Source of the DNA: Curvibacter soli
GTDB taxonomy: Bacteria; Pseudomonadota; Gammaproteobacteria; Burkholderiales; Burkholderiaceae_C
Reading direction: 5' to 3'
Assembly (NCBI RefSeq): GCF_029211125.1
Contig: NZ_JARGEN010000031.1
Span: 1-64,000, forward strand
DNA length: 64,000 nt
Shown here piece by piece: positions 18,243-46,444 of the stretch. Position 1 is the stretch's first letter. Each line of letters opens with the position of its first letter. The notes under the pieces are model-generated. The model saw only the letters and a program-made list of their open reading frames with translations, had not been told where the DNA came from and did not search any database. The position numbers and the translations under genes are program-made.

Positions 18243-19439
18243 TCAGTTCCCGAACGCCGCGATGCCGGTCTGGGCGCGCCCGAGGATCAGGGCATGCACG
18301 TCGTGCGTGCCTTCGTAGGTGTTCACCACCTCCAGGTTCACCAGGTGCCGCGCCACGCCGAACGCGTCGCTGATGCCGTTGCCGCCCAGCATGTCGCGCG
18401 CCAGGCGGGCGATGTCCAGCGCCTTGCCGCAGTTGTTGCGCTTGATGAGCGAGGTGCCCTCCACGGATGCGATGCCTTCGTCCTTCATGCGGCCGAAGCG
18501 CAGCGCGGCCTGCAGGCCCAGCGCGATCTCGGTCTGCATGTCGGCCAGCTTCTTCTGGATGAGCTGGTTGGCCGCCAGCGGGCGGCCGAACTGCTTGCGC
18601 TCCAGCGTGTACTGGCGCGCCGTGTGCCAGCAGAACTCCGCCGCGCCCATGGCGCCCCAGGCGATGCCGTAGCGCGCGCTGTTCAGGCAGGTGAACGGGC
18701 CTTTCAGGCCGCGCACCTCGGGGAAGGCGTTTTCCTCGGGCACGAACACGTCGTCCATCACGATCTCGCCGGTGATGCTGGCGCGCAGGCCCACCTTGCC
18801 ATGGATGGCCGGCGCGGTCAGGCCCTTGCAGCCCTTCTCCAGCACGAAGCCGCGGATGGGGCCGACGTTGCCGGCGGCGTCCACCTCCTTGGCCCAGACC
18901 ACGAACACGTCGGCTATCGGGGAGTTGGTGATCCACATCTTGCTGCCCTGGAGCTTGTAGCCGCCGTCCACCTTGCGGGCGCGCGTGGCCATGCTGCCGG
19001 GGTCGGAGCCGTGGTCGGGCTCGGTCAGGCCGAAGCAGCCGATCCACTCGCCGCTGGCGAGCTTGGGCAGGTACTTCTGCTTCTGCGCCTCGGTGCCGAA
19101 TTCATGGATGGGCACCATCACCAGCGAGCTTTGCACGCTGGCCATGGAGCGGTAGCCCGAATCCACGCGCTCCACCTCGCGCGCAATCAGGCCGTAGGCC
19201 ACGTAGTTCAGGCCCGGGCCGCCGTACTGCTCGGGGATGGTGGGGCCCAGCAGGCCCACCTCGCCCATCTCGCGGAAGATGGACACGTCGGTGGTTTCGT
19301 GGCGGAACTGCTCCAGCACGCGCGGCGCGAGCTTGCCCTGGCAGTAGGCGCTGGCGGCATCGCGGATGGCGCGCTCGTCGTCGGTGAGCTGCTGGTCGAG
19401 CAGCAAAGGGTCGTCCCAATGGAAGGCGGCATGGGCCAT
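18243..19439 (-). CDS. gcdH: Glutaryl-CoA dehydrogenase
   Basis: A 398-residue FAD-dependent acyl-CoA dehydrogenase that oxidises and decarboxylates glutaryl-CoA to crotonyl-CoA in lysine, tryptophan and glutarate breakdown. The GcdH subfamily is indicated by the substrate-side [13 protein letters not shown] motif, [16 protein letters not shown], and the C-terminal [18 protein letters not shown] with the catalytic glutamate. ATG 19439 follows a GGAGA site; the open frame upstream is an artefact of a tetranucleotide repeat. Divergent from a LysR regulator, which probably controls it. Confidence 0.93.
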
Positions 19440-19459
19440 GGCGTGTCTCCGTAGCGAGG

Positions 19460-19551
19460 AAGGAAGGAAGGAAGGAAGGAAGGAAGGAAGGAAGGAAGGC
19501 TGACTGGCTGGCTGGCTGGCTGGCAGGCTGGCAGGCTGGCAGGCTGGCAGG
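19460..19551. repeat. Compound tetranucleotide repeat: (AAGG)10, then CTGG/CAGG units
   Basis: Ten perfect AAGG units (19460-19499), a 4-base spacer, five CTGG units (19504-19523), and then alternating CAGG and CTGG to 19551. The tract begins 20 bases upstream of the gcdH start and lies between it and the divergent LysR gene. Its length can change by slippage, so it may alter promoter or leader spacing. Confidence 0.92.
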
Positions 19552-19684
19552 AAGAAAGAATGAAATGGAATATGACGTGAATGCGTTCCAGCGCCCCCGA
19601 AAGCGTGGTTGCCGCAATAATACTGCGGTGGCGGCGCGTTTGGCAAACGAGGTTTTTGCACGAAGTCATGCTATTGTGGAATAT

Positions 19685-20596
19685 ATGCACCGCAAAATCC
19701 CCTCCACCCAGGCCCTGGCCTGCTTCGAGGCCGCCGCCCGGCACGAAAGCTACACCCGCGCCGCGCAGGAGCTGGCGCTCACGCAGAGCGCCGTCTCGCG
19801 CCAGATCAACGCACTGGAGTCCTTCCTGGGCGTGGCGCTGTTTCGCCGCACACGCCACGGCGTGGTGCTCACGCCCAGCGGCGCGGGCTACTGGCGGCAG
19901 GTGGCGCGCCGGCTGCAGGGGCTGGAGCGCGACACGCTCGACGTGATGGCCCGCCAGGGCCAGGGCGGCGCGCTGGCGCTGGCGGCAGTGCCCACCTTCG
20001 CCACGCGCTGGCTCATCCCGCGCCTGCCGCAACTGGCCGCGCGCCACCCGGACATCACGGTGCACATCGAGACGCGCACCCGCCCCTTCCTGTTCACCGA
20101 CGCGGAATTCGACGCCGCCCTGTACGCCGGCACGCCCGAGCAGGTGGCCAACTGGCCCGGCACGCGCGCAGTGCAACTGCTGCAGGAAGACGTGCTGCCC
20201 GTCTGCAGCCCCGCGCTGCTGCCGCAAGGGCGCGCGGTGGAGCCCGCCGCGCTGGCGCCCATGCCGCTGCTGCAGCAGAGCACGCGCCCCTACGTCTGGC
20301 GCCAGTGGTTCGACGCCATGGGCGTGGCCCCGGCGCAGGCGCCGAAGGCCATGGACGGGCCGCGCTACGAGCTGTTCTCCATGCTCGCGCAGGCGGCGGC
20401 CTGCGGCATGGGCGTGGCGCTGATTCCGCCGCTGCTCATCGAGGCCGAGGTGGCGCGCGGCGAGCTGGTGGCCGCCTGCGAGCGCCCGCTGCGCGGCGAG
20501 CGCAACTACTACCTGGTCACCCCGGCGCAGGAAGAGACGCCCGTGCTCGCCGCGTTCGGCGCCTGGCTGGCGCAGGCGGCGCGGGCCGCGCAGTGA
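19685..20596 (+). CDS. LysR-family regulator (GcvA type), probable gcdH activator
   Basis: A 303-residue transcription factor: N-terminal winged helix-turn-helix (YTRAAQELALTQSAVSRQINALE, split as AAQELALTQSAVSRQ core) and a C-terminal periplasmic-binding-like effector domain. The start MHRKIPSTQALACFEAAARH is characteristic of GcvA-like LysR proteins. It is divergent from gcdH across about 245 bases, so it probably responds to a glutarate-pathway metabolite; this is inferred from position. ATG 19685 was chosen by the start of family similarity. Confidence 0.9.
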   Translation: MHRKIPSTQALACFEAAARHESYTRAAQELALTQSAVSRQINALESFLGVALFRRTRHGVVLTPSGAGYWRQVARRLQGLERDTLDVMARQGQGGALALAAVPTFATRWLIPRLPQLAARHPDITVHIETRTRPFLFTDAEFDAALYAGTPEQVANWPGTRAVQLLQEDVLPVCSPALLPQGRAVEPAALAPMPLLQQSTRPYVWRQWFDAMGVAPAQAPKAMDGPRYELFSMLAQAAACGMGVALIPPLLIEAEVARGELVAACERPLRGERNYYLVTPAQEETPVLAAFGAWLAQAARAAQ

Positions 20597-23195: not shown

Positions 23196-23226
23196 TAGTT
23201 ACCAACCAAATTTGAAAGGACACCCC

Positions 23227-23586
23227 ATGCCAAACATCCAGATTTTCGATCCGGCGCTGTGCTGCAGCACGGGCGTATGCGGCGTCGAAGTCGATCAAAA
23301 CCTGGTCAACTTTGCCGCCGACGTGGATTGGGCCAAGCAAAACGGTGCGCAAATCGAACGCTTCAACCTGGCGCAGCAGCCGCTGGCTTTTGCCGAAAAC
23401 CCGACCGTGAAAGGCTTTCTGGAGCGCTCGGGTTCGCAGGCGCTGCCTCTGGTTCTGGTCGATGGCGAGGTGGCCCTGGCCGGTCGTTATCCGAGCCGCA
23501 GCGAACTGGCCCGCTGGGCCGGCATCGAGGTGGCCGAAGCCTCGCCGGCGCAAGGCGCTTGCTGCACTGGCAGCCGCTGCTGCTGA
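23227..23586 (+). CDS. arsD: Arsenite metallochaperone ArsD
   Basis: A 119-residue protein that hands As(III) or Sb(III) to the ArsA ATPase. The metal site ALCCSTGVCG supplies Cys12, Cys13 and Cys18; further vicinal pairs occur at GACCTGSRCC near the C-terminus (Cys112-113, 118-119), as in classical ArsD. ATG 23227 follows a GAAAGGA site. It lies 13 bases upstream of arsA. arsR, arsB/acr3 and arsC are not found in the window, so the operon is partial. Confidence 0.93.
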   Translation: MPNIQIFDPALCCSTGVCGVEVDQNLVNFAADVDWAKQNGAQIERFNLAQQPLAFAENPTVKGFLERSGSQALPLVLVDGEVALAGRYPSRSELARWAGIEVAEASPAQGACCTGSRCC

Positions 23587-23599
23587 ACGAGGCGATGCC

Positions 23600-25369
23600 A
23601 TGCATTTTCTGACCGAGCCGCCGCGCTTTCTGTTCTTCACCGGCAAAGGGGGCGTCGGCAAGACCTCCATCGCCTGCGCCACGGCCGTGCAACTGGCAAG
23701 CCAAGGCAAGCGCGTGCTGCTGGTCAGCACCGACCCGGCTTCGAACGTGGGGCAGGTGTTCGGCCAGCCCATCGGCAACCGCATCACGGCGATGGCCGCC
23801 GTGCCGAACCTGTGGGCGCTGGAAATCGACCCGCAGGCGGCGGCGCAGGCGTACCGCGACCGCATCGTCGGCCCGGTGCGGGGCGTGCTGCCCGATGCGG
23901 TGGTGGATGGCATCGAAGAATCCCTGTCGGGTGCCTGCACCACGGAAATCGCCGCCTTCGACGAGTTCACGGCCCTGCTGACCGATGCGGCGCTGGCGCA
24001 GGATTACGCGCACATCGTTTTCGACACGGCCCCCACGGGCCACACCATCCGCCTGCTGCAACTGCCGGGCGCATGGAGCGGCTTTCTGGAGGCGGGCAAG
24101 GGCGATGCCTCGTGCCTGGGGCCGCTGGCGGGCCTGGAAAAACAGCGCAGCCAGTACCAGGCTGCGGTCGAGGCGCTGGCCGACCCCTTGCGCACGCGCC
24201 TGGTGCTGGTCGCCCGTGCGCAGCGCCCGGCGCTGCGCGAGGCGGCGCGCACCCATGAAGAACTGGCCGCCATCGGCCTGTCGAGGCAATACCTGGTCAT
24301 CAACGGCGTATTCCCTGCCGGCGAGGCCGCAAGCGATCCGCTGGCCGCTGCCATCTACGCCCGCGAGCAGGCCGCCCTGGCCGCCATGCCGCAGGCGCTC
24401 GAGGGGCTGCCGCAGGATCGGATCGCGCTCAAGCCCTTCAACCTGGTGGGCGTCGATGCCCTGCGCTGCCTGCTGACCGACGCCGACGACACCCCCCAGG
24501 GCGCCGCTGCCGTCGAGCTGCCTGCGCCGATCGAGGCGCCGCCGTTGTCGGCCCTGGTCGAAGGCATCGCCGCCGACGGGCATGGCCTGGTCATGGTGAT
24601 GGGCAAGGGCGGTGTCGGCAAGACCACGCTGGCCGCCGCCATCGCCGTGGCACTGGCGGACCGGGGGCTGCCGGTGCACCTGACCACCACCGACCCGGCC
24701 GCGCATCTGGCCGATACGCTGGAAGGTTCATTGCCCAACCTGACCGTCAGCCGCATCGACCCGCAGGAAGCCACGGCACGCTACCGCCAGCATGTGATGG
24801 AGACCCGCGGCGCGCAGCTCGATGCCGAAGGCCGCGCCCTGCTGGAAGAGGACCTGCGCTCGCCCTGCACCGAGGAAATCGCGGTGTTCCAGGCGTTCTC
24901 GCGTGCCATCCGCGAAGGCGACAGCAAGTTCGTGGTGATGGACACCGCACCCACCGGCCACACCTTGCTGCTGCTCGACGCCACCGGCTCGTACCACCGC
25001 GACATCGTGCGGCAGATGGGCGAGACGGGCGTTCACTTCACGACGCCGATGATGCGCCTGCAAGACCCCAGGCAGACCAAGGTGCTCATCGTCACCCTGG
25101 CCGAAACCACGCCGGTGCTGGAAGCGGCCAACCTGCAGGATGACCTGCGCCGCGCAGGCATCGAGCCATGGGCCTGGATCGTCAACCACAGCGTGGCGGC
25201 CGCACAGTCGCATTCGCCGCTGTTGCGCCAGCGTGCGCGCAACGAGTTGCGGGAAATCGACGCGGTGGCCACCCGATACGCCCGGCGTTATGCCGTCGTG
25301 CCGCTTCTGACCCAGGAGCCGGTGGGCGTGGAGCGTCTGCGGGCTTTGGCGAGCCGGGAAAAAGCATGA
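23600..25369 (+). CDS. arsA: Arsenite-stimulated ATPase ArsA
   Basis: A 589-residue cytoplasmic ATPase that powers an arsenite efflux pump. Two homologous halves each carry a deviant P-loop (GKGGVGKTS at about residues 15-23, GKGGVGKTT at 335-343) and a DTAPTGHT signature. The metal-site cysteines fall in SGACTTEIAAF, ASCLGPL and SPCTEEIAVF. Full length, so probably functional, but its membrane partner ArsB is not nearby. Next genes are toxin-antitoxin modules. Confidence 0.95.
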   Translation: MHFLTEPPRFLFFTGKGGVGKTSIACATAVQLASQGKRVLLVSTDPASNVGQVFGQPIGNRITAMAAVPNLWALEIDPQAAAQAYRDRIVGPVRGVLPDAVVDGIEESLSGACTTEIAAFDEFTALLTDAALAQDYAHIVFDTAPTGHTIRLLQLPGAWSGFLEAGKGDASCLGPLAGLEKQRSQYQAAVEALADPLRTRLVLVARAQRPALREAARTHEELAAIGLSRQYLVINGVFPAGEAASDPLAAAIYAREQAALAAMPQALEGLPQDRIALKPFNLVGVDALRCLLTDADDTPQGAAAVELPAPIEAPPLSALVEGIAADGHGLVMVMGKGGVGKTTLAAAIAVALADRGLPVHLTTTDPAAHLADTLEGSLPNLTVSRIDPQEATARYRQHVMETRGAQLDAEGRALLEEDLRSPCTEEIAVFQAFSRAIREGDSKFVVMDTAPTGHTLLLLDATGSYHRDIVRQMGETGVHFTTPMMRLQDPRQTKVLIVTLAETTPVLEAANLQDDLRRAGIEPWAWIVNHSVAAAQSHSPLLRQRARNELREIDAVATRYARRYAVVPLLTQEPVGVERLRALASREKA

Positions 25370-44986: not shown

Positions 44987-46444
44987 ATGCATTTTCTCGA
45001 CCGGCTGCGCAGTGCCGTCCTTGACCTACGCGGGGTAGCGCTGCTGGGGCTGCTGGTGCTGGGTGCCTGCTACCTGGGCATATGGGCGCGGCCCACGGGG
45101 TTCTTCTCGGCGTTCTGGCTGACCAACGCCATGCTGCTGGGCCTGATGGTGCGCAACCCCGCCTGGGCGCACTGGCCCGGCTGGCTGGCTGCGGCGATCG
45201 GGTACATGCTGGCCGATTTGACGACTGGCGGGGCATTCCTCACGACCCTCTGGCTCACGGCCTCCAATATGGCGGGCGTGCTGGTCGGCGTGGTCATGTA
45301 CAAGCGCGTGGAAGATAAGTTCTGGCGCATGCAACGGCAGTTGTCACCGCTGTACCTGTTCTGCGTGTCCATCTCCTCCGCCCTGGCCTCGGCGCTGGTC
45401 GGCAGCGGGGCCGGGCCGGTGATGTTCCACGCGGACTGGTACGAAACGTTCTGGGTCTGGGTCAGCACCGAATTCATGAACTACGTGCTGCTCATGCCCG
45501 TCATCTTCACCGCCCCGGCCCCGGCGCGCATGTGGCGGGCCGTGGCCGCGCAGAGGCCGTGCTGGCAGGGCTGGCAGGGCTGGGTGCACATGGCCCCGGT
45601 CTTCTCGGTGCTGCTGGCCGTGCTGGCGGGCACGCTGATCGGCGGGCCCGGGGCCATTGCCTTCGTGGTGCCGGCGCTGCTGTGGTGCGCGCTGACCTAC
45701 AGTCTGTTCACCACCTGCCTGCTGGGCATGCTCGTCGGCTATTTCCAGACCTTCGAGATCGCGGCGGGCATGTCCACTTTCACGCCGACGCATATGGAAA
45801 TGGTGCTGTCGGTGCGTGCCGGCGTGGCGCTGCTGTTCCTGGGGCCGCTGGCTACCGCATGCTCCCATGCGGCGCGCAGCGAAATGCTGCGGCGGCTCGA
45901 CCATGCGGTGAACTTCGACCACCTGACGGGCGCCATGGCGCGCGGCGCCTTCATGGGGACGGGCGCAAAGTTGCTGGCGCGCATGGCCGCAGACGCGCAG
46001 TCGGCTGCGGTGCTGATGCTCGACATCGACCATTTCAAGCAGGTCAACGACCGCCATGGCCATGCTGCGGGCGACGCCGTGCTCCAGGGATTCGCGCGCA
46101 TGCTCGCCGGCGAGCTGCGTCCCGGCGACCTGTGCGGGCGGCTCGGCGGCGAGGAGTTCGGGGTCGTTCTGCCCCGCATCACGCGCGGCGATGCGCTGGC
46201 GGTGGCGGAGCGCCTGTGCCTCGAAACGCGGCGCTGCGAAATCCGCGGGCCGGACGGCCAGTGCCTCAACATATCCGTCAGTATCGGGCTGGTGCACCAG
46301 GAGCCGGTTGCCGCGGATACGCGGCTCGACGCCCTGCTCTGCATCGCGGACGCGGCCTTGTACGAAGCCAAGCGCACCGGGCGCGACCGCGTCGCAGTGG
46401 TGGCCGGCGCCGACGGCACCGCTCCGCTTGTCAGTGCAGCATGA
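44987..46444 (+). CDS. MASE1-like membrane diguanylate cyclase
   Basis: A 485-residue protein with about eight membrane segments of the MASE1 type ([19 protein letters not shown] and a conserved [14 protein letters not shown]) followed by a GGDEF domain with GGEEF and [17 protein letters not shown]. It should make cyclic di-GMP. ATG 44987 was preferred to a GTG at 44954. Its 3' end overlaps convergent flhC by 14 bases. Confidence 0.88.

Follow-up and report, generated by a model that had tools for sequence, protein, structure and literature searches.

Does the short-repeat tract that stands just ahead of gcdH in Curvibacter soli switch glutarate metabolism on and off between cells, or does it reflect slippage in a stretch of DNA where added units do little harm? 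A preliminary description of the locus proposed the former, placing a compound tetranucleotide tract in the promoter shared by gcdH and a divergent LysR gene and likening it to contingency loci of host-associated bacteria. We analyzed the whole 64,000-nucleotide stretch containing the locus (hereafter, the window) together with gcdH loci of relatives, and conclude that the second reading is the probable one: a sporadic expansion, close to neutral, rather than an on/off switch. The features on which the argument turns are these:

18243 to 19439, minus strand: gcdH, glutaryl-CoA dehydrogenase, 398 aa (PDB phmmer and Pfam).
19447 to 19450, minus strand: Shine-Dalgarno (SD) sequence GGAG of gcdH, its first base 11 nt before the ATG.
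19457 to 19499, no strand assigned: perfect tetranucleotide array (AGGA)10.75, 43 bp (TRF, 100% matches, score 86; a run-length script agrees).
19500 to 19551, no strand assigned: a CTGA step and CTGG x5, leading into an octamer array, (CTGGCAGG)x4 (TRF and run lengths).
19617 to 19622, minus strand: predicted gcdH -10 box TATTAT (promoter scan, in by-eye agreement with the TA-box of relatives).
19641 to 19646, minus strand: predicted gcdH -35 box TTGCCA (promoter scan and alignment), with an 18-bp spacer to the -10 box.
19643 to 19670, minus strand: candidate LysR operator, conserved as gCATnnCTggaTG..AA..TCGtTTGc (alignment), overlapping the -35 box.
19685 to 20596, plus strand: divergent LysR-type regulator, 303 aa, GcvA-like, candidate GcdR counterpart (Pfam HTH_1 and LysR_substrate).

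The gene names given at the outset hold. Residues 1-396 of the gcdH product align with the solved enzymes 3d6b and 3eom from residue 1 onward (E 2.6e-230, PDB phmmer), a full-length match that identifies it as a glutaryl-CoA dehydrogenase, and Pfam finds the Acyl-CoA_dh N, M and 1 domains; NF045552, the only GcdH model listed in NCBIfam, scores 210 bits, far below its cut-off of 470. The gene is apparently single-copy, the next best match in the genome reaching 35% identity, and Extensimonas stands first among the named gcdH matches listed, at 88% over residues 1-398; these named matches suggest that the family compared below includes the Comamonadaceae. In several Acinetobacter records (L003-L008) gcdH is 87-89% identical to the window gene, and the divergent LysR of L004, L005, L007 and L008 is just 51-54% identical to that of the window, identities that make transfer of gcdH between groups possible.

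The divergent gene is a LysR regulator by its Pfam domains and scores 265 bits with the NCBIfam GcvA subfamily model, under that model's cut-off of 288; it shares 51-83% identity with the LysR products of 20 divergent loci. Because the N-termini of relatives begin at the residue matching 19685, both this start and the originally described gcdH/LysR spacer, 19440-19684, stand. With LysR domains and a divergent placement beside gcdH it is a candidate GcdR counterpart, and we regard its regulatory role as putative. Farther along the window, at ~23220-25369, open reading frames look, by eye, like genes for an ArsD-like arsenic metallochaperone and then a duplicated ArsA-type ATPase.

The compound tract itself is real, with small corrections to its size and place. 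TRF and a run-length script delimit it at 95 bp (19457-19551), where 92 bp had been given, and 17 bases (19440-19456), not 20, separate it from the gcdH ATG (19439, minus strand). The units of its 43-bp array can be written AAGG or AGGA, which are rotations of one another; on the strand of the gcdH mRNA leader this array becomes (CCTT)n. Beyond it, the CTGG x5 run spans 21 nt (19504-19524, run-length script) and overlaps a 34-nt run of 8-bp period with the unit CTGGCAGG (19518-19551); TRF treats 19504-19551 as a single period-8 repeat with 97% matches. No period-4 run longer than 18 nt arose when the 64-kb window was simulated 200 times with an order-3 Markov model (mean of maxima 12.2). The observed run of 43 nt is thus not due to chance, and it is a long perfect short-unit repeat of the sort that marks simple-sequence repeat (SSR) contingency loci.

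That two tetranucleotide arrays coexist with an octamer array, itself apparently an offshoot of one of the two, suggests that slippage has occurred before. The octamers could have arisen when a single CTGG unit changed to CAGG and the resulting pair was then copied, in which case slippage seems to have involved more than one unit. The tract belongs to the kind that changes length by slippage, as first proposed, and it is probably length-variable, known here from one genome of its genus. Searches of that genome with exact patterns of four AAGG or four CTGG copies match the gcdH tract alone, and a repeat common to several genome sites was rejected on that ground. The string CTGGCAGG is also found in a GCTGGCAGG x2.6 tandem array at 45561-45583 of the window.

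It was the placement of the tract in the promoter that did not survive. A promoter scan of 19400-19800, independent of the alignment of relatives, returned the TTGCCA/TATTAT pair as its sole site, which agrees with the consensus at 10 of 12 positions (50 shuffles gave a mean of 0.0). Upstream of the TA-box seen by eye, an alignment of 20 rows, counting the window and 19 of the 20 divergent relatives (L012 anchored on a variant string; L002, which has no anchor, dropped), contains a conserved block, gCATnnCTggaTGnnaAAnncTCGtTTGc, whose core columns are shared by 17-20 rows and its other columns by 12-16. A regular expression for this operator matches once across both strands of the window, and it matches 16 of the 20 divergent loci versus 3 of 89 other loci, the expression having been built from those same sequences. 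The operator-like block is kept in divergent gcdH/LysR spacers, Acinetobacter records included, and is not the published Pseudomonas putida GcdR site.

Because the conserved operator and the -35/-10 boxes occupy about 19670-19617, the tract lies downstream of them, in the 5′ leader of gcdH. With transcription beginning at a point that we infer to be near 19610, the tract is predicted to be untranslated leader between that point and the Shine-Dalgarno sequence at 19450-19447, its edge standing 6 nt from the GGAG; of the 20 divergent relatives, 16 have a GGAG, AGGA, GAAG or GGAA string no more than 25 nt away from the start of gcdH. The TCGTTTG anchor and the gcdH start are 204 nt apart in the window versus 51-140 nt in 19 relatives, as measured to a tblastn-derived start that in some rows misses the ATG by a few codons. 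Without the 95-bp tract the window distance becomes 109 nt, so the tract looks like an expansion inside an otherwise ordinary leader.

Given this predicted start, the locus has the arrangement known from uspA2, in which a tetranucleotide array follows the promoter and precedes the start codon. Its repeat, downstream of the -10 box and in a predicted leader free of start codons, lies neither within a reading frame nor between promoter elements, the places where a contingency locus would have it. A promoter-spacing switch was rejected because the tract is downstream of both boxes. A switch by frameshifting, using the frame that stays open ahead of gcdH (ORF 18243-19661), was rejected as well: its GTG is upstream of the promoter boxes, a start-codon search found no ATG, GTG or TTG in the predicted leader, and the solved homologues align from the 19439 start.

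We compared 109 gcdH loci, 80 named and 29 unnamed (the latter drawn from the family and order; the two sets may overlap), of which 20 have a recognizable divergent LysR gene. A perfect tetranucleotide run of at least four copies is present at none of the 80 named loci, and a run of at least three copies near gcdH at none of the 29 unnamed ones, the exception being a GCTG x3 about 1 kb from the gene. The gcdH of genome G018, 92% identical to that of the window, has no tract. Among the titles and abstract openings listed, a coverage mostly outside subscription papers, none mentions a repeat at gcdH.

Comparable tracts are scattered through the family at other genes. AAGG runs of at least 4.5 copies occur in 6 of 399 family genomes, C. 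soli included, and two of the other runs, (CCTT)4.5, stand shortly before a start codon, one of a substrate-binding-protein-like gene (L129) and one of a glutaredoxin-like gene (L131), both named by eye. A probe made of all 33 tetranucleotide units gave matches at E<=1e-4 in at least 30 of 165 family genomes, and the units matched were diverse; since at most three candidates were scored per genome, these counts are lower bounds. At the 38 loci holding the other AAGG and probe tracts, gcdH was not found.

These tracts lie outside coding sequence. A frame that is open and coding-like for 150 nt on both sides accompanies 0 of 28 tracts (two loci with short flanks were skipped), versus 294 of the 300 control points, a favorable control in that these points were placed in window genes and the codon table was trained on those same genes. 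A crude gene caller left 27 of 30 tracts not wholly within a called gene, an unreliable count, as the caller over-extended starts (the three tracts placed inside a gene are the gcdH tract, L173 and L187), had four tracts overlapping a gene edge and left long stretches uncalled; in four of the 30 loci (L175, L180, L187 and L189), moreover, the longest perfect run is just 11-19 nt. Several tracts immediately precede genes or fall between them, the genes concerned having no shared theme, and others stand at gene ends. Examples are a 77-bp CGAA run before a solute-binding protein gene (L161, 1499-1575), a compound (GACT)/(GATT) tract before a short-chain dehydrogenase gene in G018 (L163, 1526-1583), a (GCCT) tract before prmA (L166, 1500-1558) and a (GACT) tract before a histidine kinase gene (L182, 1501-1529; L170 likewise concerns a histidine kinase). 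The C. soli genome itself carries (TGAC)8 with an imperfect continuation (L147, contig C89:294-333) and (AGTC)5.5 (L149, C9:31293-31314). Runs of 14 nt with a GACT unit also occur there on C30 (L157) and at C9:113004 (L160), so that this unit recurs in the genome. Each genome having its own unit and its own place, the pattern fits slippage that is tolerated where no frame is broken.

Folding of the leader was modeled with ViennaRNA, whose equilibrium structures are a weak proxy for expression. Predicted exposure of the Shine-Dalgarno sequence stays at 0.34-0.40 across 0-20 AAGG units and at 0.39-0.41 across 0-8 octamers, and masking of that sequence by the CCUU array was rejected because the unit-number series is flat. 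Removal of the whole tract lowers exposure from 0.40 to 0.19. Shuffled tracts average 0.27, with 29 of 200 reaching the natural value, and random 95-mers from the window put in its place average 0.49, with 137 of 200 reaching it. With a flat unit series and a drop on full removal, AAGG unit number is predicted to have no effect on exposure, and the presence of some unstructured spacer before the Shine-Dalgarno sequence may matter.

The account that we favor, and consider reasonably probable, is a lineage-specific microsatellite grown by replication slippage in the untranslated gcdH leader, with a length nearly neutral for the gene. Slippage would expand the array between the transcription start and the ribosome-binding site, and the tract would gain and lose units; because a change of unit number alters neither promoter geometry nor frame, its length would be nearly neutral, and control by glutarate would stay with the LysR regulator at the conserved operator. 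The observations behind this account are the place of the tract relative to the conserved promoter, its perfect repeats, its absence from the relatives examined and the sporadic occurrence of like tracts. Several points count against neutrality: the perfect 10.75-copy array, free of decay, looks like an actively mutating tract; the drop in modeled exposure on removal of the whole tract means that its presence may matter even if its unit number does not; and in Moraxella catarrhalis a leader tract about as long does tune expression (PMC4679880), an analogy that may carry over.

That analogy gives weight to a leader rheostat, which we hold possible though unlikely, in which repeat number would set GcdH level modestly through mRNA stability, through ribosome standby or S1 binding on an unstructured CCUU run, or through pausing. 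The tract has the position class and unit size of uspA2, its CCUU array is predicted to be 88% unpaired (ViennaRNA), and the 40 nt before the Shine-Dalgarno sequence are somewhat pyrimidine-rich in relatives too (0.50-0.70 in the 16 rows, out of 20, that have a Shine-Dalgarno match, the other four having been dropped, versus 0.95 in the window). Against it, exposure is predicted to be constant over unit numbers, the tract is not conserved at gcdH, and like tracts precede unrelated genes; equilibrium folding leaves out mRNA decay, S1 binding and pausing, however, so the rheostat remains a live rival. A broader version, in which the family repeatedly grows leader tetranucleotide tracts at metabolic and housekeeping genes, gene and unit differing by species, as evolvable length-tuned rheostats outside host-contingency biology with gcdH as one case, strikes us as doubtful.

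The on/off contingency locus of the preliminary description, with slippage toggling glutarate use between cells, draws on a long perfect array able to slip and on a gene without an apparent second copy, and only its slippage-prone character stands. The tract is outside promoter spacing and, given the predicted start, outside any frame, in a leader free of start codons and with flat predicted exposure; gcdH is metabolic and encodes no surface antigen; and none of the 80 named or the 29 unnamed loci holds such a tract at gcdH, while comparable ones are scattered through noncoding DNA elsewhere in the family, in some cases ahead of unrelated genes. We judge such a switch very improbable. Equally hard to credit is an action on the LysR gene, with the tract as an upstream element or as part of an extended LysR leader or N-terminus beginning at the ATG at 19565: ORF 19565-20596 is open, and the plus strand is purine-rich with a Shine-Dalgarno-like string just before 19565, but the LysR of relatives starts at the residue matching 19685, an in-frame stop lies within a few codons ahead of the equivalent position in 7 of 20 relatives, and the tract ends 133 bp short of 19685. 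Least likely of all, the repeat number could be an artefact of a draft assembly of 3.36 Mb in 99 contigs, where the copy number of a short-read array is a consensus; the 95-bp array, though, is bordered by unique sequence in the interior of a contig longer than 64 kb, and its mixed internal structure would not be expected from simple collapse.

Should leader repeat number prove to tune expression, the locus would offer a fast and reversible adjustment of catabolic genes outside the well-studied host-bound pathogens, and would extend a mechanism that PMC4679880 (2015), in the part available, lists for two M. catarrhalis surface-protein genes only. Should it not, the locus would be a clean example against naming a contingency locus before placing the promoter, despite a long microsatellite beside the gene. 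A 2014 survey found tetranucleotide repeats to be generally not suppressed in prokaryotes and, citing earlier work, associated long SSRs with dependence on a eukaryotic host (PMC4060949, in the portion available).

Among known systems, P. putida has a gcdH beside a LysR gene: there, the LysR-type GcdR activates gcdH with glutarate as effector, and gcdH has -35/-10 boxes and a short leader, with transcription starting 37 bp before the ATG (PMC6667623). As in the window, a LysR gene adjoins gcdH and the boxes lie upstream, but the P. putida GcdR site, GTGACAAAATATCAC, differs from our candidate operator motif, and the available portion of that paper mentions no repeat tract at gcdH. In Neisseria meningitidis nadA, a simple-sequence repeat at a repressor-regulated gene, NadR operators flank the repeat and its length alters the spacing of promoter elements (from the accessible part of PMC2791445), whereas the gcdH tract is downstream of all promoter elements found. 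According to PMC4679880, experimental work up to 2015 covered two tandem repeats lying after a bacterial promoter and before the start codon, the G-tract of M. catarrhalis uspA1 and the AGAT tract of uspA2. The first resembles the gcdH tract in position only, between promoter and start codon, the unit size being that of uspA2. The second, (AGAT)n in the 5′ UTR, ranges from 6 to 23 copies among strains, and copy number affects expression (same source); it belongs to a surface-protein gene of a respiratory pathogen, where variation among strains is known, whereas gcdH is catabolic and its tract known from one genome. As a tetranucleotide array that likewise lies between promoter and start codon, uspA2 is the closest working analogue of the gcdH tract.
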